Below are positions 1,561 through 15,941 of a stretch of 64,000 bases of DNA, piece after piece. Source of the stretch: Gluconacetobacter liquefaciens (GTDB lineage Bacteria; Pseudomonadota; Alphaproteobacteria; Acetobacterales; Acetobacteraceae); the NCBI RefSeq assembly GCF_003350405.1, contig NZ_QQAW01000004.1, forward strand, positions 124,001 through 188,000, given 5' to 3'. Under the pieces are notes generated by a model that worked only from the letters and a program-made list of their open reading frames with translations, was not told where the DNA came from and ran no database searches. A program made the position numbers and the translations under genes. Position 1 is the first letter of the stretch; the number at the start of each line of letters is the position of its first letter.

Positions 1561-2343
1561 TCAGGTTCCCGCCCGCCCGGATCCCCCGGTAGCGTCACGG
1601 TCCAACAGCAGAATCTCGCCGGTCGAAATCCGTTTCAGCCCGTCGGCACAGTCCAGCAGGAGCATTCCTTGCTCGTCCAGCCCCACGAATGAACCTTCTA
1701 CCTGCCCGCTTTCGCCGCGCACTACAAGTCTCGTGCCAAGCGGATGGGCCCGTTCCAGCCATGCCGCGCGCAGCGAACCGAACCCATCCGAGCGCCACAC
1801 CGCCTGCCAGCGATCCAGTTCGACACAGATCGCACGCGCTACGACCGCAGGATCCGGTGCGGTCCCATAATCGGCGACGCAGGCAAGAGTCCGCCCGGCA
1901 ATCGAAGGCGCGGCCCGCAGATTGGCTCCGAACCCAATGACCAGCCACCGCCCGATGGCGTCGCTCCCGCTCTCAATAAGAATGCCGGCGGTCTTGCGTC
2001 CACCCAGCAGCAGATCGTTGGGCCATTTCAGCCGCAACTGTGCGGGATCGCGAATCCAAGGCAGGATCGCCCCATGAAAGGCCAGCCCGGCTACGAACGG
2101 CCACAGCCCAACCGCACCTTCCGCCTTGATGGGGCGCAGCAGAACCGAGAAGGCCAGATTGCCGCCTGGATCCTGCCAGTCACGGCCTCGGCTCCCCCGG
2201 CCACTGGTCTGGCGCCGGGCCATGATCGCCAGACCAGCCTCAGCCCCGACGCCGGCCTGCGCGATGCAGCAATCGGACGTAGACCCCAGTTCGTCATGAA
2301 TCTCGAGGCGCCAGGCTGTCGCCCCCGGCACCGGCGGCGCCAT
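1561..2343 (-). CDS. birA: Biotin--[acetyl-CoA-carboxylase] ligase
   Basis: A 260-residue biotin protein ligase that attaches biotin to the BCCP subunit of acetyl-CoA carboxylase. The sequence shows ELGSTSD near the N-terminus, the biotinyl-AMP loop GRGSRGRDW and KWPNDLLLGGRKTAGILIE, followed by the small C-terminal SH3-like domain. There is no N-terminal helix-turn-helix, so this is the monofunctional (group I) form without repressor activity. ATG 2343 overlaps the nuoN stop by one base (TGATG), indicating translational coupling; a GTG one codon upstream is possible. Association of birA with the 3' end of nuo operons is common in alphaproteobacteria. Confidence 0.93.
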   Translation of the reverse strand: MAPPVPGATAWRLEIHDELGSTSDCCIAQAGVGAEAGLAIMARRQTSGRGSRGRDWQDPGGNLAFSVLLRPIKAEGAVGLWPFVAGLAFHGAILPWIRDPAQLRLKWPNDLLLGGRKTAGILIESGSDAIGRWLVIGFGANLRAAPSIAGRTLACVADYGTAPDPAVVARAICVELDRWQAVWRSDGFGSLRAAWLERAHPLGTRLVVRGESGQVEGSFVGLDEQGMLLLDCADGLKRISTGEILLLDRDATGGSGRAGT

Positions 2344-3767
2344 CACCTGAACAGAGCCTGAGCCGCTGCCTGGGCCGCCGTCGAAACCGGCCCCAGCACC
2401 ACCAGGAATCCTACGGTCGCAACCCCCATCCCGACGGAGACGAAGGACAGCGACAGGGGCCGCCGGTCAAGCGGCGCCGTCGCCTCGTCGAAGAACATCA
2501 CCTTGATGATACGCACATAATAATAGGCACCGATCACACTGCTGACGACACCGACCGCCGCCAGCCCAAACAGATGAGCATTGATCGCGGCATAAAACAC
2601 CATCAACTTGCCGAAGAAACCGGCCAGCGGCGGCGCCCCCGCCATGCTGAACATGAAGATCGCCATCGCGGTGGCCAGCCCCGGATCAGTGCGGCCCAGC
2701 CCGGCCAGATCGGCAATCCCCGTCACCGCCCGCCCCTTGCGACGCATGGCGATAATCACGGCGAACGCACCGACATTCATGAGCAGATAGGTCGTCAGAT
2801 AAACCAGCGTACCACGCATGCCTTCTTCGGTACCAGCCGACAGACCCATCAGCGCGTAGCCCATATGGCCAATCGAGGAATAGGCCATCAGCCGTTTGAT
2901 ATCGGTCTGCGGAATGGCGGCCAGCGACCCGAACACCATCGAGACGATCGCAATGGCTTCGACCAGGATCTGCCATTGCGGCGCGACGTGACCGAACGGC
3001 CCGGCCATCACCCGCAGCAGCAGCGCAAAGGCCGCGATCTTCGGCGCACCGGCCATGAAAGCCGTCACCGGGGTCGGCGCGCCCTGATAGACGTCAGGCG
3101 TCCACATATGGAACGGCACCGCCGACAGCTTGAAAGTCAGACCCGCCAGCATGAACACGATGCCGATCATCAGCCCCATCGGCACGGCGGACGTCGCGCT
3201 GAGCGCGGTCTGGATGGCGCCATATTCCATGGTACCGGCAAAGCCATAGACCAGAGCCGAACCATAGAGCAGCAGCCCGGAGGCCAGCGACCCAAGCACG
3301 AAATATTTCAGCCCAGCCTCCGCCCCCCGCACATCATCCCGTGCAAAAGCGCAGAGGATGTAGATGGCCAATGACGACAGTTCCAGCCCGATGAACAGCG
3401 TCATCAGATTACCCGACGAAGCCATCATCATCGTGCCAAGGGTTGAAAACAGCAGCAGGACCGGGAATTCGAATCGTTCCACCTTCAGTTCCCGCGCATA
3501 GCCGACCGTCAGCATAGTGGCCAACGCCCCGCCGGCCAGGCTGAGAATCTTCATGAAACGGGCAAAGCTGTCATTGACGAAGATGTGGTTGTAACCGATC
3601 CCGTCCGGCGACATCACGACCAGGAATGCGGTCAGGACGAAGGCGCCGATCGTCAGCATGGAACAGGCAAGAAAGGGCTGCCCTTTCTTCTGCACCACCC
3701 CGAAGACGAGGATAGCGAGGCCACACAGCGCCAGGACGATTTCCGGCAGAGCAAGTGTCCAGTTCAT
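2343..3767 (-). CDS. nuoN: NADH-quinone oxidoreductase subunit N
   Basis: A 474-residue Mrp-antiporter-like membrane subunit of complex I, one of the three proton-pumping modules of the membrane arm. It shows about 14 hydrophobic segments and the hallmarks LELSSLAIYIL, HMWTPDVYQGAPTPVTAF and DIKRLMAYSSIGHMGY. The ATG at 3767 (MNWTLALPE) is chosen. The open frame runs 66 codons further upstream, but that part is the nuoL gene read in another frame. The immediately preceding gene is nuoL, with no nuoM between them. Confidence 0.96.
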   Translation of the reverse strand: MNWTLALPEIVLALCGLAILVFGVVQKKGQPFLACSMLTIGAFVLTAFLVVMSPDGIGYNHIFVNDSFARFMKILSLAGGALATMLTVGYARELKVERFEFPVLLLFSTLGTMMMASSGNLMTLFIGLELSSLAIYILCAFARDDVRGAEAGLKYFVLGSLASGLLLYGSALVYGFAGTMEYGAIQTALSATSAVPMGLMIGIVFMLAGLTFKLSAVPFHMWTPDVYQGAPTPVTAFMAGAPKIAAFALLLRVMAGPFGHVAPQWQILVEAIAIVSMVFGSLAAIPQTDIKRLMAYSSIGHMGYALMGLSAGTEEGMRGTLVYLTTYLLMNVGAFAVIIAMRRKGRAVTGIADLAGLGRTDPGLATAMAIFMFSMAGAPPLAGFFGKLMVFYAAINAHLFGLAAVGVVSSVIGAYYYVRIIKVMFFDEATAPLDRRPLSLSFVSVGMGVATVGFLVVLGPVSTAAQAAAQALFR

Positions 3768-3790
3768 CGGTTCAAACCCGTTCCCGGAGA

Positions 3791-5731
3791 TCAATGGAAG
3801 ACCAGCAGGGTGGAGACGAGCACCACCAGACCAATCAGCATCGTGAAGGCATAGATCGCGATCGAACCGGTCTGGGTCCGCACCGCCTGAGCAGCGGTTC
3901 CGGCTGTCATCCTGGCCAGACCGTGCGGAATCCCCTCGATCACCCCTTCGTCCGCGCCCTTCCACAACAGGTTGGCCAGCGCGCGGTACGGCCGGACGAA
4001 CAGATGGTCATACAGTTCGTCGAAATACCATTTGTTCAGCAAGAACAGATAGATCGGCCGCAGGCTGGTCGCGAACGACGCCGGAATGGTCGGGCTGGCC
4101 ACATAGCAGAGATAAGCGACCAGAATCCCCAGCACGCCGGCAAAGGTCGGCACCAGCGCGATCAGTTCCGGCGTCTGTTCCAGCGTCGCGATGACGGTGT
4201 TACCCGGCGCATTCACAATCGCCCCGCTCCAGAACGCAGCCTGCCCTTCGCCGACATAGTACGGCGCCAGCAGCAGCCCGGCCAGCACGGCACCCACGCC
4301 CAGCAGAACCAGCGGCAGCGTCATCCAGACCGGGCTCTCATGCGCGCCCTCATGCAGGTGCGCATCGCGCGGCGCACCATGGAAGACCAGAAAGATCAGA
4401 CGCCAGCTATAGAGCGCGGTAATGAAGGCCGTAATGCAGCCCAGCGTCCAACCATAGAAGCCGAGACCGCTATGGGCCATCCATGTGGCCTCCAGAATCG
4501 CGTCCTTCGACCAGTATCCGGCGAAGGGAAAGATACCGGCAAGCGCCAGGCTGCCCAGCCACATTGCGCCATAGGTCAGCGGAATCTTCTTCCACAGGCC
4601 CCCCATGCGGAACATGTTCTGCTCGTCATGAACGGCATGGATCACCGAGCCCGCACCCAGGAAGAGTAGCGCCTTGAAGAAAGCATGCGTCGTCAGATGA
4701 AACATCGACGCCTGGTACGCCCCAGCCCCGACCGCCATGAACATGTAGCCAAGCTGCGAACAGGTCGAATAGGCGATCGTGCGCTTGATATCCGGCTGCA
4801 CCAGCCCCACCGTGGCGGCGAAGAAGCAGGTCGTCGCGCCGATGAACAGAATGAAAGCCTTGGTATCAGGCGCGAATTCCACCAGCGGCGACATCCGCGC
4901 CATCAGGAACACGCCGGCGGTCACCATGGTCGCGGCATGGATCAGCGCGGAGACCGGCGTCGGGCCTTCCATGGCATCCGGCAGCCAGGTGTGCAGGAAA
5001 AGCTGCGCCGACTTGCCCATCGCGCCGATAAACAGCAGCAGGCAGATCGTCTCATAGATCCGGTGCGTGCCGAGCAGCGTGTAGGTGTCGTCACCATGTG
5101 CCGGCACCAGCGCAAAGATATTGTCGTAGGTGACCGAGCCGAATTCGACGAACAACAGCGCGATCCCGACCATGAAGAACAAATCGGCGACGCGATTGAC
5201 CACGAAAGCCTTGATCGCGGCCGCACAGGCGCTGGGCCGATCATACCAGTAGCCAATCAGCAGATAGCTCGCGAGGCCCACCCCTTCCCAGCCGAAGAAG
5301 AGCTGGATCAAGTCGTTCGACGTCACCAGCATCAGCATGGCAAAGGTGAAGAGCGAGAGGTAGGAGAAGAACCGATAGGTCGGGGTCGTCTCGTGCCCCA
5401 TGTAACCGATGCTGTAGATATGCACGAGAGCCGAGACCGCCGTGACCATGGCGACCATCGACAGCGACAGCGTATCCAGTCGCAGCGTCCAGGCGGCATG
5501 GAAGCTGCCGGCACGGATCCAGTCCGCCAGTTGCACCACGACCGGCATGCCGCCGATATGCATCGCGGTGAACAGCGCGCCACTGCCGCACAGGGCTGCG
5601 ATCACCATGATGGACGTAGTCAGCGCCTTGGCCGGCCCGTCGCCCATCATCCGCCCGAACAGTCCCGCCACCATGCAGGCGAACAGGGGCCCAAGGACCG
5701 CGATCTCGAAAAGGGTAGATGCCGTTTGCAT
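3791..5731 (-). CDS. nuoL: NADH-quinone oxidoreductase subunit L
   Basis: A 646-residue, strongly hydrophobic distal proton-pumping subunit of complex I. Signatures include FFGWEGVGLASYLLIGYW, LPDAMEGPTPVSALIHAATM, DIKRTIAYSTCSQLGYMF and HAFFKALLFLGAGSVIHA. The C-terminal part carries the long lateral helix expected of NuoL, and the length is normal for the family. It follows nuoK by 7 bp. The next gene is nuoN after only 23 bp, so this copy cannot be a nuoL-nuoM fusion: its length fits NuoL alone. Confidence 0.96.
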   Translation of the reverse strand: MQTASTLFEIAVLGPLFACMVAGLFGRMMGDGPAKALTTSIMVIAALCGSGALFTAMHIGGMPVVVQLADWIRAGSFHAAWTLRLDTLSLSMVAMVTAVSALVHIYSIGYMGHETTPTYRFFSYLSLFTFAMLMLVTSNDLIQLFFGWEGVGLASYLLIGYWYDRPSACAAAIKAFVVNRVADLFFMVGIALLFVEFGSVTYDNIFALVPAHGDDTYTLLGTHRIYETICLLLFIGAMGKSAQLFLHTWLPDAMEGPTPVSALIHAATMVTAGVFLMARMSPLVEFAPDTKAFILFIGATTCFFAATVGLVQPDIKRTIAYSTCSQLGYMFMAVGAGAYQASMFHLTTHAFFKALLFLGAGSVIHAVHDEQNMFRMGGLWKKIPLTYGAMWLGSLALAGIFPFAGYWSKDAILEATWMAHSGLGFYGWTLGCITAFITALYSWRLIFLVFHGAPRDAHLHEGAHESPVWMTLPLVLLGVGAVLAGLLLAPYYVGEGQAAFWSGAIVNAPGNTVIATLEQTPELIALVPTFAGVLGILVAYLCYVASPTIPASFATSLRPIYLFLLNKWYFDELYDHLFVRPYRALANLLWKGADEGVIEGIPHGLARMTAGTAAQAVRTQTGSIAIYAFTMLIGLVVLVSTLLVFH

Positions 5732-5738
5732 GGCCCGC

Positions 5739-6062
5739 TCAGCCCTTCATCATGGTGATGTCTTCGACCTCGATCGAACCGCGATTGCGGAAATAGACCG
5801 TCACGATCGCCAATCCGATGGCGGATTCAGCCGCCGCGATGGTCAGGACGAACAGGGTGAAGACCTGCCCGGACAGATCGCCGAGCGCGGAAGAAAATGC
5901 GACGAAATTCAAATTCGCCGACAGCAGGATCAGTTCGATCGACATCAGGATGATGATGACGTTCTTGCGGTTCAGGAAAATGCCGAACACACCCAGAACC
6001 AGCAGGATGGCACTGACCGTCAGATAAGGCCCGATGCCGATGCTTCCCAGTCCGCCGGTCAT
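5739..6062 (-). CDS. nuoK: NADH-quinone oxidoreductase subunit K
   Basis: A 107-residue, three-helix membrane subunit of complex I (MrpC-like). The conserved membrane glutamates are visible in [14 protein letters not shown] (helix 2) and in [14 protein letters not shown] (helix 3). The start overlaps the nuoJ stop by 4 bp (ATGA), so translation is probably coupled. Full length for the family. Confidence 0.96.
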
Positions 6063-6817
6063 TGCGCCAGCCCTCCATGGTTGTCGGCACCGTGTTTCAG
6101 GGGGCCCTCGACCGGCTTGCCCTGAGGCACGGGGTCGGCTGTCACCCCGTACGATCCGGGCACCGACGCGATGTAGTAGGATTCTTCCGGCCGGCGGAAA
6201 CCGCCATTGGCAGCCACACCCTGCCCCAGCGGCACAGTCATCATGGCAAGCGTATCCGTCACCGTACGTTCGTGCTGCCGATCGATGTTCTGCCGCCGCC
6301 CCATCGGCCGTTCGCGCAGCGTCAGCACGATCGCGCCGATCATCGCCACCAACAGCACCAGACCGCAGGATTCGAACAGGAAGATGTAATGCGTATACAG
6401 CACGTCACCTAACGCCGCGGTATTGGTCCGTCCCGGCGCCGCCACCACATGCGGCACGGAACCGATATCCTGCGCGACTTGCCAGTGGCTGAATGCCAGC
6501 GCCAGTTCGGCCAGCAGCACCAGCCCCACCGCCGCCCCGAAGGGCGCGTAACGCTGCAATCCCTCGCGCATCTGCGCGAAACGGACATCGAGCATCATCA
6601 CGACGAACAGGAACAGCACCGCAACGGCACCGACATAGACGATGACCAGGATCATCGCGAGGAATTCGGCCCCCGCGACCAGAAACAGACCCGCAGCATT
6701 GAAGAATGCCAGGATCAGAAACAGCACGGAATGAACGGGATTACGCGCGCTGACCACCGTGCCGGCCGACAGGACCAGTACCGTCGCGAACACGTAGAAG
6801 ACGATTTGGGTCATCAT
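6059..6817 (-). CDS. nuoJ: NADH-quinone oxidoreductase subunit J
   Basis: A 252-residue complex I membrane subunit with five predicted transmembrane segments in the first ~170 residues, including the typical [21 protein letters not shown] segment near residues 54-75. The remaining ~75 residues are hydrophilic ([19 protein letters not shown] onward), which makes this longer than many bacterial NuoJ proteins (~165-205). The tail repeats the pattern of other alphaproteobacterial NuoJ proteins but its role is not known to me. There are two adjacent ATG codons at the start (6817, 6814). Confidence 0.94.
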
Positions 6818-6877: not shown

Positions 6878-7366
6878 TCAACGATAGGGCGCATCGAGTT
6901 CCAGCCGCCGCGCCAGGACACTTTCCCAGCGGTCGCCGTTGGCGAGCAGCTTGTCCTTGTTGTACATGAGTTCCTCGCGCGTCTCGGTCGCGAACTCGTA
7001 ATTCGGCCCTTCGACAATCGCATCGACCGGGCAGGCCTCCTCGCACAGGCCGCAATAGATGCATTTCGTCATGTCGATGTCGTAGCGCGTCGTGCGCCGC
7101 GACCCGTCATCGCGCGGTTCGGATTCGATCGTGATCGCTTCCGCCGGGCAGGTCGCCTCGCACAGCTTGCAGGCAATGCAGCGTTCCTCGCCGTTCGGAT
7201 AGCGACGCAGGGCATGCTCCCCACGGAAACGCGGCGAGAGCGGCCCCTTTTCGTATGGATAGTTGATCGTCACCTTGGGTTTGAAGAAGGCCCGCAGCGT
7301 CGCTCCCATGCCGGCCACCAGTTCGGCCAGCAGGAAGGAACGGACCGTCCGGTCAAGATACCCCAT
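6878..7366 (-). CDS. nuoI: NADH-quinone oxidoreductase subunit I
   Basis: A 162-residue peripheral-arm subunit that carries the two [4Fe-4S] clusters N6a and N6b passing electrons toward N2 in NuoB. Both ferredoxin motifs are intact: [12 protein letters not shown] and [15 protein letters not shown] 7366 ([10 protein letters not shown]) overlaps the nuoH stop by one base (TGATG); the longer open frame upstream is nuoH read out of frame. 60 bp separate it from nuoJ. Confidence 0.96.
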
Positions 7367-8391
7367 CAGCTCGCTCCTCCCTGGGGCAACAGCCCGGTGG
7401 CCAGCAGAAAGCCCGCCGTCAGCACCATCCACACCAGCGAGAGCGGGAGGAACACTTTCCATCCCAGGCGCATCAACTGGTCGTAGCGGTAACGCGGAAA
7501 CGTCGCGCGCACCCAGATAAAGACGAACAGGCAGAACAGGATTTTCGCAATCAGCCACAGCGGCCCCGGTATCCAGGTAAAGGGCGCGATCCCGATCGGC
7601 GGCAGCCAGCCACCGAGAAACAGAATGCTGACCATCCCCGACATCAGGAACATGTTGGCATATTCGCCCAGGAAGAAGAGGCCGAAGGCCAACGCCGAAT
7701 ATTCGACGAAGAAGCCAGCCACCAGTTCACTCTCGCCCTCGGGCAGATCGAATGGCGCGCGGTTGGTCTCCGCCAGCGCCGAGATGAAGAAGATGATGAA
7801 CATCGGAAACATCGGCAGACAGAACCAGACATGGCGCTGCGCGAGCACGATGTCGTTCAGGTTCAGGCTGCCCACCGCCAGCAGCACCGACACGATCACA
7901 AGGCCGATCGACACCTCATACGACACCATCTGCGCCGCAGCGCGAAGGCCGCCGAGAAAGGCATATTTCGAATTCGACGCCCAGCCCGCGATCAGCACGC
8001 CATAGACACCTAGCGACGAGATGGCGAGCAGGTAGAGAACACCGACATTGATATTCGCGATCGCCCAACCATCGTTTGTGGGAATGACCGCCCAAGCCGT
8101 CATAGCCAGTGAAAAGGTCAGGAAGGGTGCGAACAGGAACAGAAACCGGTTGGCTCCGGACGGGATCACGGTTTCCTTGGTAATCATCTTGATCGCGTCG
8201 GCAAAAGCCTGCAGCAGACCAAAGGGGCCGTTGACGTTCGGCCCCTTGCGAAGCTGCATCGCCGCCATGACCTTGCGTTCGGCCAGCGTCAGATAGGCGA
8301 CGCCCAGCAGAAGCGGCACCAGAACGGCCAGGGCTTCGAGAACCGTCAGGATCACCTGACCGATCATTGTGTGCAGAAAGAAATGCGCCAC
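7366..8391 (-). CDS. nuoH: NADH-quinone oxidoreductase subunit H
   Basis: A 341-residue, eight-helix membrane subunit that forms the quinone-binding chamber at the junction of the two arms. Signatures include [41 protein letters not shown] and [15 protein letters not shown]. The start is a GTG at 8391 ([11 protein letters not shown]), 6 bp after the nuoG stop; an in-frame ATG lies eight codons later. Length is typical. Confidence 0.95.
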
Positions 8392-8397
8392 GTCGCC

Positions 8398-10464
8398 TTA
8401 CTCCGCCGCCACAGTCCGGGGATGGACATAAATCCGCGAACATTCGCCCATCGTCGGGCTCGCCCGGCAGATCGGGTCCGTCTGATAATAATCGTCGAAG
8501 ACCGGACGGAACGGCACCGGCGACACCGCACCGCCCCCCGCCGGCCCCGGCAGCACGGACACGTCCACCGCATCCAGCCCGCCGATCACCCGGAAGACCG
8601 GATTGACCGTCGCCAGCCGCTCGCGCAGCACCTCCATGGTGTCATAGGGTAGCGTATGACCCACGACCTCGGAGAACGCCCTCAGGATGCGCCAGTCCTC
8701 GCGCGCGTCGCCGGGCGGCATGATCGCCCGAAACGACCGCTGAACCCGCCCCTCGGTATTCACATAAGTGCCCGATTTCTCCGCATAGGTCGCGCCAGGC
8801 AGGATCACATCCGCCCGCGCCGCCGCCGCGTCGCCATGATGCCCCTGATAGATAACAAACGTCTGCGGCCCGATCTGCGCGGTATGGAACTCGTCCGCCC
8901 CCAGCAGCCACAGCACGTCGACGCCGCCACTCATCATCCCGGCAGCGCTGCGCCCCCCCTTGCCCGGCACCAGCCCCAGATCCAGCCCGGCGACCCGACT
9001 GGCCGCGCGATGCAGGACATTGAATCCGTTCCACCCCGCCGCGACTGCCCCCGTCTCGACGGCCAGCGCCCAGGTCGACGCCAGGATCGCCCGCGCATCG
9101 GGCCGCATCAGCGCACCGTGCCCAACGATGATCATCGGCTTCTTCGCCGCCTTCAGCGTCTCGGCGAACGGATGCGTGCCATCGCGCAGAGCGGCCAGCA
9201 CGTCCGGCCCCTCGCCCAGCAGGTCCGCCTTGTAGGTCGGGTCAGCCGTCGGCGCACCGATCAGCCCGATCGGGAACCCGCCCCGGCCCGCCGACAGGAA
9301 ACGCTTGCGAATACGCGCATTCAGCACCGGCGCTTCCTGGCGCGGGATCGCGCCGACGATCAGCAGCGCGTCGGCATCTTCGATCCCGGCAATGCTGGTA
9401 CCGAAGGTGTAATAGGCCCGATGCGACAGATCATACTCCGCACCATCCTGGCGGCAGTCGATATTGGGCGAACCCAGCGCTGTCATCAGGTCCTTCAGCG
9501 CCAACAGGCTCTCGGCATCGCACAGATCGCCAGCAATGGCCCCGATCCGATCACCCGGCACACCATCCAGCCGACGACCGATAGCCACGAACGCATCCTG
9601 CCACGAAACCGCCTGCAACTTGCCATGGACCCGCACCCAGGGTCGGTCCAGACGACGATGCTTCAGCCCATCGACCGAGAAGCGTCCCTTGTCGGCCAGC
9701 CATTCCTCGTTCACCGCGTCATTGACACGCGGCACGGCCCGCAGCACGGCGCTGCCACGCACATGCAGGCTGATATTGGCGCCCACCGCATCGCTGACGT
9801 CGATCGAGTCCGTCCGCTTCAACTCCCAGGGCCGGGCGGTGAAGGCATACGGCTTCGAGGTCAGAGCCCCCACGGGGCAGATGTCGATCAGATTACCCGA
9901 AAGCTCAGAAGTCAGCGCCTTCTCGACATAGTTGGTGACTTCCATGTTCTCGCCGCGCGAGACTGCGCCCAATTCAGGCACGCCCGCGATCTCTGTCGCG
10001 AACCGGATACAGCGCGTGCACTGAATGCAGCGCGTCATCACCGTCTTGACCAGCGGGCCGAGATATTTGTCCTTCACGGCGCGCTTGGCTTCCTGATAGC
10101 GCGAGTGATCGGCACCATAGCCGAACGCCTGGTCCTGCAGGTCGCATTCGCCACCCTGGTCGCAGATCGGGCAGTCCAGCGGATGGTTGATCAGCAGGAA
10201 TTCCATCACCGCCCGCCGCGCCTTGCGCACGATCTCGGTGTCGGTCAGGATTTCCATCCCCTCAGCAACCGGAAAACCGCAGGACGCGACTGGCTTTGGC
10301 GCCCGCACGACCTGCACCAGGCACATGCGGCAATTGCCCGCGACCGACAGACGCTCATGGAAACAGAAGCGCGGAATTTCCTTGCCGGCCGCCTCGCACG
10401 CCTGCAACGCGCTGGACCCGTTGGGAACATCGACGACGATTCCGTCGACGGTTACTTTCACCAT
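8398..10464 (-). CDS. nuoG: NADH-quinone oxidoreductase subunit G
   Basis: A 688-residue large iron-sulfur subunit of the NADH-input module. The N-terminus binds the [2Fe-2S] N1b cluster (Cys residues in CFHERLSVAGNCRMC), then come HPLDCPICDQGGECDLQDQ (N5, His plus three Cys) and TRCIQCTRCIRFATEI (N4), followed by a molybdopterin-oxidoreductase-like domain without a cofactor. ATG 10464 (MVKVTVDG) is chosen because the domain begins there; the 96 codons of open frame upstream are nuoF out of frame. Stop TAA. Confidence 0.96.
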   Translation of the reverse strand: MVKVTVDGIVVDVPNGSSALQACEAAGKEIPRFCFHERLSVAGNCRMCLVQVVRAPKPVASCGFPVAEGMEILTDTEIVRKARRAVMEFLLINHPLDCPICDQGGECDLQDQAFGYGADHSRYQEAKRAVKDKYLGPLVKTVMTRCIQCTRCIRFATEIAGVPELGAVSRGENMEVTNYVEKALTSELSGNLIDICPVGALTSKPYAFTARPWELKRTDSIDVSDAVGANISLHVRGSAVLRAVPRVNDAVNEEWLADKGRFSVDGLKHRRLDRPWVRVHGKLQAVSWQDAFVAIGRRLDGVPGDRIGAIAGDLCDAESLLALKDLMTALGSPNIDCRQDGAEYDLSHRAYYTFGTSIAGIEDADALLIVGAIPRQEAPVLNARIRKRFLSAGRGGFPIGLIGAPTADPTYKADLLGEGPDVLAALRDGTHPFAETLKAAKKPMIIVGHGALMRPDARAILASTWALAVETGAVAAGWNGFNVLHRAASRVAGLDLGLVPGKGGRSAAGMMSGGVDVLWLLGADEFHTAQIGPQTFVIYQGHHGDAAAARADVILPGATYAEKSGTYVNTEGRVQRSFRAIMPPGDAREDWRILRAFSEVVGHTLPYDTMEVLRERLATVNPVFRVIGGLDAVDVSVLPGPAGGGAVSPVPFRPVFDDYYQTDPICRASPTMGECSRIYVHPRTVAAE

Positions 10465-10469
10465 CGCCC

Positions 10470-11795
10470 TTACTCCGCCGCCACAGGAATACCGAGCGGC
10501 ACCTGCGTAATCCGTCCACCGCCATGAGCCGCCTTGTAGGCGGTAATCCGCTCTTCCATCACCGGACGGAAATGCCGGATCAGGCCCTGGATCGGCCACG
10601 CGGCCGCATCGCCCAGGGCACAGATCGTGTGGCCCTCGACCTGGCGCGTCACCTGTTCGAGCATGTCGATTTCCTCGATTTCCGCCCGCCCCTCGACCAT
10701 CCGGTTCATGACCCGCATCATCCAGCCGGTACCTTCGCGGCACGGCGTGCACTGGCCGCAGCTCTCATGCTTGAAAAATTGCGAGAACCGGGCAATCGCC
10801 TTGATGATGTCGGTCGATTTGTCCATCACGATCATGCAGGCGGTGCCCAGGCCCGAACGCTCGGCGCGCAGGCTGTCGTAATCCATCAGCACCGTTTCAC
10901 AGATCGACGCCGGCAGCACCGGCACCGAACATCCGCCGGGGATCACCGCCAGCAGATTGGCCCAGCCGCCGCGCACGCCGCCGCCGTGCTTCTCGATGAT
11001 CTCCTTCAGCGGCACGCCCAGCTCTTCCTCGAACACGCAGGGCGTATTCACATGGCCCGAAATGGCCATCAGCTTGGTGCCCGCATTGTTCGGCCGCCCC
11101 AGCGCCGAGAACCACGCGCCCCCGCGCCGCAGGATGGTAGACGACACCGCAATGCTCTCGACATTGTTGACAGTCGTCGGACAGCCATACAGCCCCATCG
11201 CCGCCGGAAAGGGCGGCTTCATGCGCGGCTGCCCCTTCTTCCCCTCCAGGCTTTCCAGCAGTGCGGTTTCCTCGCCGCAGATATAGGCTCCGGCACCGCG
11301 ATGGATGTAAAAATCGAAGTCCCACCCCGATCCGGCGGCATTCTTGCCGATCAACCCGGCCGCATAGGCTTCGTCTATCGCGATCTGGAGATGGCGCGCC
11401 TCATTGAAAAACTCGCCGCGGATATAGATATAGGCTGCATGGGCTCCCATCGCGAAGGAAGCGATCAGAGCGCTTTCAATCAGCTTATGCGGCTCGTGCC
11501 GCAGGATCTCACGATCCTTGCATGTCCCCGGCTCGGACTCGTCGCCATTGATGACCAGGTAATGCGGCCGCCCATCCGAACTCTTGGGCATGAACGACCA
11601 TTTGACACCGGTCGGAAACCCCGCCCCGCCGCGACCGCGCAGGCCAGAGCCCTTCATCTCGTTGATGATGGCATCCCGGCCACGCGCCAGGATCTCGGCA
11701 GTGCCGTCCCAATCGCCGCGCTGGCGCGCGCCTGCCAGCCGCCAGTCGTTCTGACCATACAGGTTGGTGAAGATCCGGTCTTTATCCTGAAGCAT
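10470..11795 (-). CDS. nuoF: NADH-quinone oxidoreductase subunit F
   Basis: A 441-residue catalytic subunit that binds NADH, FMN and the [4Fe-4S] N3 cluster. The sequence shows the NADH/FMN glycine-rich stretch [46 protein letters not shown] and the cluster motif [11 protein letters not shown] with a further Cys in [13 protein letters not shown]. It lies 15 bp downstream of nuoE and 5 bp before nuoG, in the usual E-F-G order. Confidence 0.97.
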
Positions 11796-11810: not shown

Positions 11811-12449
11811 TCAGCCCTGTTCCGCCGGACTATCCGCCAGCGTCCTGCGTCCACCGGCTGGCGCCGAGTTCACCCGGTCGATCGTCGGTCCCGGCGTCGG
11901 CCGCTCGCCACGACGCAACGCCTCGATCAGTTCGATCGTGCGCGGTCCGTCCAGATCCTCGTAGAAATCGTCATCAACCTGCAGGATAGGCGCATTGGCA
12001 CAAGCCCCCAGGCACTCCACCTCGGTCAAGGTAAACAGCCCGTCGGCGCTCGACTGACCGAAACCGTCAATCCCGGTCGCCTTCTTGCAAGCCGCGACCA
12101 CATCGTCCGACCCACGCAACCAGCAGGAGGTCGTTGTGCAGACCTGAAGATGATACCGCCCGATCGGCTTGGTATTGAACATCAGGTAGAAGGTCGCCAC
12201 CTCGTAGACACGGATCGGCGCGACTTCCAGCCGGTGGGCGACCTCGTCCATCGCCACGCGCGGCACCCAGGCGCTACCCGTCTGCCGCCCCATCTGCTTC
12301 TGCACGACATACAGAAGCGGGAGCGTGCCGCTGGCCTTACGTTCGGGCGGATATTTGGCCAGGATCGCCGCGATCTGCTCTTCGCTTTCAGCATCAAAGG
12401 CGAAGCTGTCGGGCTGTTCGATCTGATCGATGGGGGAATGAGCAGACAT
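11811..12449 (-). CDS. nuoE: NADH-quinone oxidoreductase subunit E
   Basis: A 212-residue thioredoxin-fold subunit binding the [2Fe-2S] N1a cluster. The four cysteines are visible in VCTTTSCWLRG and VECLGACANAP. It carries a C-terminal tail of about 50 residues rich in Arg, Pro and Gly after EALRRGERP, beyond the core domain. ATG 12449 (MSAHSPIDQIEQ) is chosen; the upstream open frame is nuoD in another frame. Confidence 0.95.
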   Translation of the reverse strand: MSAHSPIDQIEQPDSFAFDAESEEQIAAILAKYPPERKASGTLPLLYVVQKQMGRQTGSAWVPRVAMDEVAHRLEVAPIRVYEVATFYLMFNTKPIGRYHLQVCTTTSCWLRGSDDVVAACKKATGIDGFGQSSADGLFTLTEVECLGACANAPILQVDDDFYEDLDGPRTIELIEALRRGERPTPGPTIDRVNSAPAGGRRTLADSPAEQG

Positions 12450-12454
12450 CTCTG

Positions 12455-13705
12455 TCACCTGTCTATCTCGCCGAACACCAGGTCGAGCGACCCGATGATC
12501 GCGACCGCGTCGGCCAGCATGTGGCGGCGCGACATCTCGTCGATCGCCTGAAGATGGGCGAAGCCGGTCGGCCGAATCTTGCATCGGTAGGGGCGATTAC
12601 TGCCGTCCGCGACCAGATAGACCCCGAATTCGCCTTTTGGGCTTTCCACCGCCGTATAGGTCGCGCCGGGCGGCACGTGATACCCTTCGGTGAACAGCTT
12701 GAAATGATGGATCAACGCTTCCATCGACCGCTTCATCTCCCGCCGCGGCGGCGGGGTGATCTTGTGGTCCTGGATCTTGACCGGCCCCGGCTTGATCTGC
12801 GCCAGGCACTGCTCGACGATCTTCACGCTCTCGCGCATCTCCGCCACACGCACCAGATAGCGATCGTAGCAATCGCCCTGGCGCGTGACGGGGATATTGA
12901 ACGTCACCTTGTCATAATTGTCATATGGTTGCGCGCGACGCAGATCCCACGGCACGCCCGAAGCCCGCAGACAGGGACCGCTGAAGCCCCAGGCCAACGC
13001 CTGCTCGGTCGTGAACACGCCGATCCCGACCGTCCGCTGCTTCCAGATGCGGTTATTGGTCAGCAACGTTTCCAGATCGTCGATCCAGCGCGGGAATTGC
13101 CGCGCCCATTCCGCAATCCGCTCTTCCAGACCCGCCGGCAGGTCTCGGGCCACACCACCCGGACGGAAATAATTTGCATGAAAGCGCGCGCCAGACGCGG
13201 CCTCGTAGAACTCGATCAGCTTCTCGCGCTCTTCATACCCCCACAGCGCCGGCGTCAGCGCACCGCAATCCAGCCCGAACGAGGTCAGATTCAGGATATG
13301 GTTCAGGATGCGCGTCATTTCTGCGAACATCACGCGAATCCATTTCGCGCGGTCAGGAATCTCGATCCCCAGCAGCTTTTCCGTCGCCAGCGCGAATGCC
13401 TGCTCTTCGCACATCGGCGAAACGTAATCGAGCCGATCGAAATACGGCAGCGCCTTGGGATAGGTCTTGTATTCGATCAGCTTCTCGGTGCCACGATGCA
13501 GCAATCCGATATGCGGAATGGCACGGGCGACGACTTCACCTTCCATCTCCAGCACCAGACGCAGCACGCCATGGGCCGACGGATGCTGCGGACCGAAATT
13601 CAAGGCGTGGGAATCGATCTCCACCGTCCGGATCTGTGCCTCGGCAGCCGCGTCCGCGGACATCAGATCTTCCGGAATATCCTCGTGAAGGACAATCTCG
13701 CTCAT
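12455..13705 (-). CDS. nuoD: NADH-quinone oxidoreductase subunit D
   Basis: A 416-residue peripheral subunit related to the large subunit of [NiFe] hydrogenases, forming part of the quinone site with NuoB and NuoH. Conserved blocks include [21 protein letters not shown] (quinone-site His and Tyr region), [26 protein letters not shown] and [21 protein letters not shown]. It ends DLVFGEIDR, the usual C-terminus. It is separate from nuoC (52-bp gap), unlike the fused nuoCD of enterobacteria. Confidence 0.97.
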
Positions 13706-13757: not shown

Positions 13758-14423
13758 TCATCGCGGCAACTTCAGTCCCTGGCGGGATTCATGGGCCTTC
13801 TCATCACCCGGCAGGGTCAGGATACCCTCCCACGGCGATTCAAAATCGAAATTGCGGAAATCCTGCGTCAGCTTCACCGATTCGTAGACCACCTGACGGC
13901 GATCCTCGTCGTACCGCATCTCGACATAGCCGGTCAGCGGGAAGTCCTTGCGCAGCGGATGCCCCTCGAACCCGTAATCGGTCAGAATGCGCCGCAGATC
14001 CGGCTGCCCCGAAAACAGGACCCCATACATGTCGTAGCACTCGCGCTCCCACCACGTAGCGCACGGCCACAGATGATGGACCGACGCCACCGGATTGGCC
14101 TCATCCGTCGTCACAATGACACGAATCCGGTGGTTATGCGTCACCGACAACAGATTATAGACGACCTCGAATCGTTCCGCCCGAGCGGGATAGTCGACAC
14201 CACACAGATCCATCAGTTGCTCGCAGGCATAGCGCGGATCATCGCGCAGCAGACCCATCAGCGCGAGCAAGCGGTCCCGGCCGGTCCTTACAACCAGTTC
14301 GCCCTCCTCAATCGCGGCTGAATGGATACCGGGTACGCCCGTCGACAGCGCGAAAGCCAGCGACCCCAGCGCACCACGCGCCAGAGACACCTTCATCGTC
14401 AGTTCGGTGCCCGGTTCAGCCAC
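13758..14423 (-). CDS. nuoC: NADH-quinone oxidoreductase subunit C
   Basis: A 221-residue peripheral-arm structural subunit. Signatures are [44 protein letters not shown] and [25 protein letters not shown] start at 14423 overlaps the end of nuoB by 8 bp and has an AGGGA sequence upstream; the alternative ATG at 14396 (MKVSLARG) has none. The C-terminal LKLPR is close to the family norm. Confidence 0.94.
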
Positions 14424-14991
14424 GGAGAATCGTCCCTGTCCTGCGGATTTTCTTCTGGAGCTGCAGGATGCCGTAGATCAGCGCCTCCGCCGTCGGCGGG
14501 CAGCCGGGAACATACACGTCCACCGGCACGATCCGGTCGCATCCGCGCACCACGGAATAGGAATAGTGATAATAGCCCCCGCCATTGGCGCAGGATCCCA
14601 TCGAGATCACCCAACGCGGCTCGGCCATCTGGTCGTAGACGCGGCGCAGGGCGGGCGCCATCTTGTTGGTCAGGGTCCCGGCCACGATCATCACGTCCGA
14701 CTGGCGCGGCGATCCGCGCGGAATGATGCCCATCCGGTCCAGGTCATAGCGCGGCATGTAGGCGTGGATCATTTCCACCGCACAGCACGCCAGCCCGAAA
14801 GACATCGGCCACAGGCTGCCAGTACGGCCCCAATTGACCAGTTTGTCGAGGTTGGCGACGACGAACCCCTTCTCGGTGATCTCGCCGGTAATACCCTTGA
14901 TGACGGCATCCTGCTCCGGCCCCGGCGGCAGCATGTCCCGATTCCAGGCTATCGCGCCCTGCCCATCACTTGTCGCATCAGCGGTACTCAT
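14416..14991 (-). CDS. nuoB: NADH-quinone oxidoreductase subunit B
   Basis: A 191-residue subunit carrying the terminal [4Fe-4S] cluster N2, which reduces quinone. The cluster ligands are seen as the tandem cysteines in [10 protein letters not shown], the Cys in [10 protein letters not shown] and the Cys in [14 protein letters not shown] 14991 (MSTADATSD) is chosen; upstream codons in the open frame overlap the nuoA spacer and lack homology. Confidence 0.96.
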
Positions 14992-15026
14992 GCCTCGTCT
15001 CCTCCCGTCGCTCGATCCTAGGCCGC

Positions 15027-15392
15027 TCAATCCCAGTCCAGGGCACCCTTGCACCACTCATAGATGAACCCCACCGTCAGAATGCCCAGGAACCCCATCA
15101 TCGACAGAAAGCCGAACAGGCCGATCCGCGACAGACTGACCGCCCAAGGGAAAAGAAAGGCGACTTCAAGGTCAAAAATGATGAACAGGATCGCCACCAG
15201 ATAGAACCGGACATCGAAACGATGCCGCGCATCGTCGAATGCCTCGAACCCGCACTCGTAAGCCGAGACCTTTTCGGCATAGGGTTTCTGATGACCGAAG
15301 AGCAGGGAGCTTCCCAGCATCGCGCCGGCAATCACGACCGCCAGGACACCAAAAATCAGAACTGGAAAATAATCCGCAAGAACGGACGTCAT
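15027..15392 (-). CDS. nuoA: NADH-quinone oxidoreductase subunit A
   Basis: A 121-residue, three-helix membrane subunit and the first gene of the complex I operon. The conserved loop [29 protein letters not shown] (shown by its cysteine, the Glu-Ala pair and the [11 protein letters not shown] block) is intact. 285 bp separate it from the tRNA-Asp gene; the operon promoter should lie there, though I see no clear consensus. Confidence 0.96.
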
Positions 15393-15677: not shown

Positions 15678-15754
<77 letters not shown>

Positions 15755-15866
15755 GAAGGCGTGAGGCGGTGTTTAACCATGCCGCCGGGAAGCGTCAACC
15801 GGAGATGATCATTTTGTCCGGCATCCCGACGAGACAGGACAGGCAAGCCGGCACCGAGCCGGCAGG

Positions 15867-15941
15867 TGGTGGGCGATGACGGGATCGAACCGCCGACCCT
15901 CTCGGTGTAAACGAGACGCTCTACCGCTGAGCTAATCGCCC
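15867..15941 (-). tRNA. tRNA-Val(TAC)
   Basis: A cloverleaf on the minus strand. The acceptor stem GGGCGAT pairs with ATCGCCC, the anticodon stem CTCGT/ACGAG encloses TTACACC (anticodon TAC), the T-arm is GGTTCGATCC, and CCA is encoded. It lies just downstream of hup. Confidence 0.95.

Follow-up and report, generated by a model that had tools for sequence, protein, structure and literature searches.

The window analysed here, a stretch of 64,000 nucleotides (G000:C4:124001-188000), carries on its minus strand a nuo operon that runs from nuoA to nuoL and nuoN and is followed by birA. The same gene comes after nuoN in many relatives, both with the canonical gene order and with the split order described below. 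In a profile search, nuoA to nuoL and nuoN were recognized as 13 open frames, each of which matches an NCBIfam family. The curated cut-off is passed by 12 of the 13 operon subunits, the exception being NuoA. Upstream of nuoA, the same strand carries genes for tRNA-Asp and tRNA-Val (15678-15941). The features are listed below with their profile, bit score and cut-off.

1561..2346 (-), birA: TIGR00121, 117.9 bits, cut-off 83.1
2343..3767 (-), nuoN: NF004440, 609.2 bits, cut-off 519
3768..3790 (-), nuoL-nuoN junction, 23 bp from the nuoL stop to the nuoN ATG, without NuoM: the nuoM site in the canonical relatives that were read (order L-M-N)
3791..5731 (-), nuoL: TIGR01974, 786.2 bits, cut-off 407.5
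5739..6062 (-), nuoK: NF004323, 161.1 bits, cut-off 89
6059..6817 (-), nuoJ: NF005164, 263.4 bits, cut-off 154
6878..7558 (-), nuoI (ORF limits; the true start is probably within the ORF, because the profile match starts at residue 68): NF004539, 306.7 bits, cut-off 225
7366..8391 (-), nuoH: NF004745, 517.3 bits, cut-off 450
8398..10752 (-), nuoG (ORF limits; here, too, the true start is probably internal, because the match starts at residue 100): TIGR01973, 723.5 bits, cut-off 470.05
10470..11795 (-), nuoF: NF010120, 824.1 bits, cut-off 389
11811..12584 (-), nuoE (ORF limits; best profile match from residue 53): TIGR01958, 159.1 bits, cut-off 142.4
12455..13705 (-), nuoD: NF004739, 608.6 bits, cut-off 360
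13758..14423 (-), nuoC: NF004733, 281.7 bits, cut-off 225
14416..15057 (-), nuoB: NF005012, 266 bits, cut-off 116
15027..15392 (-), nuoA: NF005922, 103.8 bits, E 7.6e-30, under the cut-off of 155

An earlier note on this DNA had described 13 nuo genes, with a spacing of only 23 bp from nuoL to nuoN and without nuoM in the gap, and this description is confirmed. Its further remark that nuoM has left "no trace" is true of the operon and fails for the genome.

A solitary nuoM on another contig

A search of the whole assembly with the Proton_antipo_M profile (PF00361) yielded six genes, of which two are the window's nuoL and nuoN, three lie on contig C7 and one lies on contig C2. The gene on C2 is a solitary, intact nuoM of 502 codons with a GTG start (G000:C2:277961-279469(+), identical to L007:7962-9470). 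All 14 core complex I subunits are thereby encoded in the genome, 13 in the window and NuoM on C2. Among the explanations that the earlier note had offered, that of a gene moved elsewhere was right in its outcome, and the genome-wide search for a nuoM homologue that it had proposed does find one.

Ahead of the lone gene lie ribF-ileS-lspA-bamF(DUF3035)-mutL, where MutL alone was matched to NCBIfam and the other four names come from reading the proteins. The lone NuoM exceeds the curated cut-offs of NF004499 (588.8 bits, cut-off 585) and TIGR01972 (543.1 bits, cut-off 263.8). Its structural model (pLDDT 84.4) has complex I chains of the NuoM/ND4 type as best Foldseek matches, with a TM of 0.94 to chain M of the Paracoccus complex (8qby_M).

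A second operon for complex I, in which nuoC and nuoD are fused and which includes a separate set of nuoL, nuoM and nuoN, lies on contig C7 (L008; G000:C7:153000-172000). The NuoM of this second complex could in principle serve both complexes, as it is encoded in the same genome by an open frame. We regard this as very improbable, however, since the genome also encodes the lone NuoM, whose best model is another one (NF004499 as opposed to NF004498), and since 8 of the 13 displaced genomes described below have no second NuoL at E<=1e-90.

Spread of the split, co-occurrence with the operon and upstream motif

A gene order with a lone nuoM is ordinary for acetic acid bacteria. The nuoM loci of the best 80 of 120 relatives were scored, and all 80 were examined for neighbours. 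At 70 of these 80 loci nuoM is displaced, i.e. there is no nuoK, nuoL or nuoN match in the stretch examined; the record titles name Gluconacetobacter, Novacetimonas, Komagataeibacter, Acetobacter, Commensalibacter, Lichenicoccus and unclassified Acetobacteraceae or Rhodospirillales. The other 10 (L086-L092 and L094-L096) show the usual order, with nuoL and/or nuoN adjoining nuoM, and belong to MAG-type records titled Rhodospirillales, Acetobacteraceae and, once, Asaia. This last locus (L091, CALQTN020000010.1, a MAG titled Asaia bogorensis) has a canonical nuoL-M-N run and a NuoM very close to that of the Acetobacteraceae MAG L088. Its title may be wrong, because loss of the common operon is reported for Asaia bogorensis (PMC4596401).

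In the same set of the best 80, mutL lies upstream of the displaced nuoM on the same strand at 59 of the 70 loci. No mutL was found upstream at the other 11, namely L042 and L077, where the upstream sequence is short (0.2 kb and 4.6 kb), and nine Acetobacter loci (L040, L041, L043, L046, L052, L062, L064, L075 and L079). As there is no mutL within 10 kb upstream in these nine, nuoM seems to have moved a second time there. In some deep lineages (L069/L108, L078/L106, L080 and L084), about 2-7 kb separate mutL and nuoM.

By match positions, all 12 genus-mates G001-G012 (each at least 99% complete) have a nuoL-nuoN pair and a lone nuoM elsewhere, and the lone gene was confirmed in each of them by a search with the free-standing nuoM of G124, a genome with two copies. 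Genus-mate G013 (87% complete, 1310 contigs) gave three matches only. Of the 120 family genomes, 13 are displaced as read from match positions (G000, G001, G014, G034, G038, G055, G065, G080, G084, G095, G097, G110 and G141). The gap between nuoL and nuoN measures -1 to 76 bp in 12 displaced genomes, with the window included and G001 left out; for G080 and G055, the nuoN start codon used in this measurement is not pinned down. The comparison with related strains suggested in the earlier note finds the direct nuoL-nuoN junction again and again, which shows that it does not stem from a local assembly loss.

At E<=1e-90, NuoM is found in 99 of the 120 family genomes, NuoN in 98 and both in 97. 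The three mismatches are G106, with NuoN alone (73% complete, match at a contig start), and two genomes with NuoM alone, G017 (match at a contig start) and G115 (partial match, query 5-385). Neither protein was found at this threshold in 20 of the 120, 10 of which still contain a second-type NuoL with 39-42% identity to that of the window. MutL placement took in 13 of these 20 genomes; three of the seven others are less than 90% complete. In the resulting tree (36 rows, canonical root), the 13 genomes cluster as one clade (100/100), and all other members of the node that encloses it (98/98) are displaced genomes. In none of the 13 was nuoM found in the 4-5 kb after mutL. MutL has long end branches in the displaced lineages L067 and L105 (1.33 and 1.41 changes per site). 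The joint absence of operon genes and unlinked nuoM, which concerns a single lineage, fits a shared function. Together with homology, it suggests that the lone NuoM protein should occupy the position that NuoM normally has, flanked by NuoL and NuoN.

The remaining options in the earlier note had been a pump of reduced size, an operon in decay and a segment lost from the sequence. All that speaks for any of them is the gap in gene order between nuoL and nuoN, and we consider their chances negligible. All three are contradicted by the intact nuoM encoded elsewhere and by the presence of the same junction in many assemblies from several genera, both drafts and single-contig genomes (G011, G038). 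Furthermore, the NuoM frames are stop-free in every locus listed, and NuoN and NuoM go together in the family with only the three mismatches named above.

An alignment of ten mutL-nuoM gaps revealed a conserved block. Its motif, TCGGNNGAACGTGA, occurs with at most 2 mismatches within 220 bp upstream of nuoM at 59 of 83 loci scanned (a set in which some genomes appear twice and G124 is included), compared to 38 of 2000 random 220-bp stretches. The distance to the nuoM start is 85-104 bp in 53 loci, 168-169 bp in 4 and 135 bp in 2. At four loci that lack mutL in spite of a long upstream sequence (L040, L041, L043 and L075), the motif is kept at 88-89 bp, and it thus belongs to nuoM and not to mutL. 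It is absent from the other mutL-less loci scanned (L046, L052, L062, L064 and L079), and at the 85-104 bp spacing it was not found in the Commensalibacter, Lichenicoccus and G124 loci. Neither a sigma-70-type promoter nor an Rfam family was found in the mutL-nuoM gap. We infer that in the crown genera the motif serves nuoM as a promoter or operator.

In the whole G000 genome, the motif has 20 matches with at most 1 mismatch, compared to 4 for the reversed pattern, and it may therefore be a wider binding or regulatory site. The copies include C2:277875 and C4:200674; the latter, at the start of a 121-aa ORF, is the only other perfect copy in the genome. A promoter shared by the nuoA operon and the lone nuoM was considered and rejected, as the motif was not found upstream of nuoA. 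The window contains 3 matches with at most 2 mismatches where 7.2 are expected. Joint regulation of nuoM and the operon via this motif is not supported.

Divergence and phylogeny of NuoM

On a fixed topology of 23 genomes, the stem leading to the displaced clade has a length of 0.958 for NuoM, 0.240 for NuoL, 0.173 for NuoN and 0.320 for NuoK, so that the NuoM stem is 3-5.5 times as long as those of the other three. Mean distances within the displaced group and among the canonical genomes are 1.084 and 0.508 for NuoM, 0.932 and 0.779 for NuoL, 0.959 and 0.812 for NuoN, and 1.342 and 1.144 for NuoK. NuoM is thus also fast inside the displaced clade, and part of the effect may be a lasting relaxed constraint. 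A model-free comparison of mean identities, from which G016 was left out as outgroup, gave 77.8, 69.3, 66.6 and 79.8% between canonical genomes for NuoM, NuoL, NuoN and NuoK, respectively, and 51.3, 60.5, 57.4 and 70.1% between displaced and canonical ones. NuoM therefore ranks above NuoL and NuoN in conservation among canonical genomes and is the least conserved of the four between the two groups.

Among doubly conserved columns, 23 of 174 are differently fixed in NuoM, 4 of 260 in NuoL, 5 of 155 in NuoN and 2 of 57 in NuoK. When 76 distinct displaced NuoM rows were compared with 21 in-operon rows (17 of the family and 4 of other families in the class), 26 clade-specific sites were obtained, and the free copy of G124 has the displaced state at 18 of them. 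Six key residues were tested in the lone NuoM (E144, K223, K254, H311, H337 and E396 in P0001 numbering), which we take to be the proton-path residues E144, K234, K265, H322, H348 and E407 in E. coli numbering. They are kept in 76 of 76 displaced rows, in 21 of 21 in-operon rows and in the free copy of G124. Clade-specific sites lie within 5 residues of a key residue more often than unchanged conserved sites do (11 of 26 and 29 of 150; Fisher p 0.020), which is a hint only, because the key residues and the 5-residue span were picked after seeing the site list.

A NuoM tree of 54 rows unites the 26 displaced rows with the free copy of G124 (100/100). This clade falls within the in-operon NuoMs of the family, and the branch that leads to it measures 0.82 changes per site. 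The displaced rows without the G124 copy have a support of 93/85 and 89/84; the tree program marked the G124 copy as long-branched and uncertain in position. Where the free clade falls among the family NuoMs is weakly supported (85-90%), and the data do not reject a position outside every in-operon NuoM in the family (p 0.177). A donor from outside the Acetobacteraceae, which the trees would allow, was considered and set aside: the best identity outside the family is 55% (385 class genomes, E<=1e-150), and the 11 out-of-family loci read at this threshold are all L-M-N operons.

G124 contains a normal nuoK-nuoL-nuoM-nuoN-birA run and, separately, the free-standing NuoM; its mutL has no nuoM after it. 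Two NuoMs are present in 3 of 3 genomes of its genus, with the surroundings read in G124 only. A tree in which the two copies of G124 are sisters is rejected (AU p 9.5e-6). Used as query against 397 family genomes, the free copy has matches at E<=1e-165 in 62 genomes of 11 genera, a strict cut that misses some displaced genomes such as G038. Among nine neighbour genes of the free copy that were tested, none is shared with displaced loci; the single match, GltD at 30%, falls in L092, a canonical locus. Extra NuoMs with no nuo neighbour in 16 kb were also seen in L102 (G036:C1:985000-1001000) and L103 (G126:C1:2210000-2226000). In the NuoM tree these two group with the canonical L136, apart from the displaced clade. 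Overall, NuoM has been rebuilt far more than its partners, and both versions seem to occur together in one genus.

Origin of the free-standing gene and relation to known systems

The gene itself, its integrity, its place and the clade-wide pattern are direct observations. That the split is old and clade-wide, and the lone gene strongly diverged, goes beyond what a single window shows. As an explanation we favour, with a probability of about 0.72, a complete 14-subunit complex I to which NuoM is supplied in trans; its source is probably a diverged paralogue that took the place of the operon copy. Thirteen subunits would come from the operon of the window and the fourteenth from the free-standing gene with its own conserved upstream element. 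The most likely course begins with a duplication of nuoM in an ancestor within or close to the Acetobacteraceae, after which the free copy would have diverged fast with every tested proton-path residue kept. The operon copy would then have been cleanly deleted between nuoL and nuoN in the ancestor of the acetic acid bacteria, which would leave the free copy as the sole NuoM of the complex I with a window-type operon. The genus of G124 would either have survived from the two-copy intermediate stage or have acquired the free copy later by transfer.

The main rival is a plain relocation, in which nuoM itself left the operon in the acetic acid bacterial ancestor and then sped up, and the genus of G124 received a copy later by transfer. 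Several results suit this course of events. Displaced NuoM branches near G104, G067 and G105, and in a tree of NuoL, NuoN and NuoK the displaced clade again has G104 and G067 as its closest neighbours (93/92). A tree that unites displaced NuoM and the free copy with G104 and G067 is only slightly worse and not rejected (AU p 0.411). The tree of NuoL, NuoN and NuoK does not show G124 as the sister of the displaced clade, though such a pairing is not rejected (p 0.093), and the free copy may thus have reached G124 by transfer. The continuing speed of NuoM within the displaced clade agrees with relocation as well, and it weakens the case for a takeover, as relaxed constraint would suit it equally. 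Likewise, the position of the G124 copy away from mutL and its lack of shared neighbours with displaced loci count against duplication. However, the G124 copy branches outside all displaced copies, if not with strong support, and its displaced state at part of the clade-specific sites is what would be expected of an earlier branch. Relocation does not by itself predict a much longer stem for NuoM only. We thus judge relocation followed by transfer to be unlikely, and rank duplication, divergence and takeover above it as the most likely course. The free-standing nuoM is probably more than an operon gene that moved.

More tentatively, and with somewhat less than even odds, we propose that the ancestor of the acetic acid bacteria swapped the middle proton-pumping subunit for a diverged duplicate, and that the genus of G124 keeps both and may assemble two complex I isoforms that differ only in NuoM. 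If this is true, many conserved NuoM sites were changed, some of them beside proton-path residues, and few in NuoL, NuoN and NuoK. The swap would then be a natural experiment on the exchange of one antiporter-like module in complex I. How proton pumping is shared among the three antiporter-like subunits is debated. Two NuoM types could be compared directly in an industrially used clade where the rebuilding is confined to NuoM and where one genus apparently keeps both versions. A word of caution also follows, as scoring complex I by operon content would class these pumps as incomplete.

In the accessible parts of the literature searched, which included few subscription papers, no discussion of the split, its spread or its divergence was found. 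The split is already in print for Acetobacter pasteurianus as a list of locus tags, and the part of that source seen gives the same split with no remark on it, its age, its spread or the divergence. The common nuo operon of acetic acid bacteria that was lost in Asaia and Gluconobacter (PMC4596401) is probably the one described here, and its loss there is probably the loss seen here; that work used nuoHIJKLN and, in its accessible part, is silent on nuoM. According to the available portion of an RNA-seq study of G. diazotrophicus, nuoM is listed with nuoCD in a predicted Fur-controlled operon (PMC9368920), which we take to fit the second, nuoCD-type operon. For gut-associated Acetobacteraceae, what could be consulted of PMC6558740 describes the gain of a complete second set of complex I genes by transfer. 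Four points are apparently new: the displaced NuoMs form one clade on a stem several times longer than those of NuoK, NuoL and NuoN; all three genomes of G124's genus have two NuoMs, the free one being of the displaced type; 13 genomes that form one clade inside the displaced group have neither the operon NuoN nor the unlinked nuoM; and the conserved upstream motif of the lone nuoM stays with the gene after a second move.

The 2M complex I (Chadwick et al. 2018, as described in the part of PMC6606698 that was available) has a lengthened NuoL and two NuoMs within one complex. The genus of G124 resembles it in having more than one NuoM per genome. However, in the genomes compared (12 displaced, 11 canonical, G124 among them), NuoL has 644-652 residues, with one of 640, and a single NuoM at E<=1e-90 was obtained for every one of the 13 displaced genomes. 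With a NuoL that is not lengthened and one NuoM of this type, an identity with the 2M complex was rejected. The closest known system is the canonical bacterial complex I (nuoA-N) of Paracoccus denitrificans and of the canonical Acetobacteraceae, with which the present one shares 14 encoded subunits, the NuoM fold, the key residues and an otherwise identical operon order, but from which it differs in that nuoM stands apart from the operon and has diverged strongly compared with its partners.
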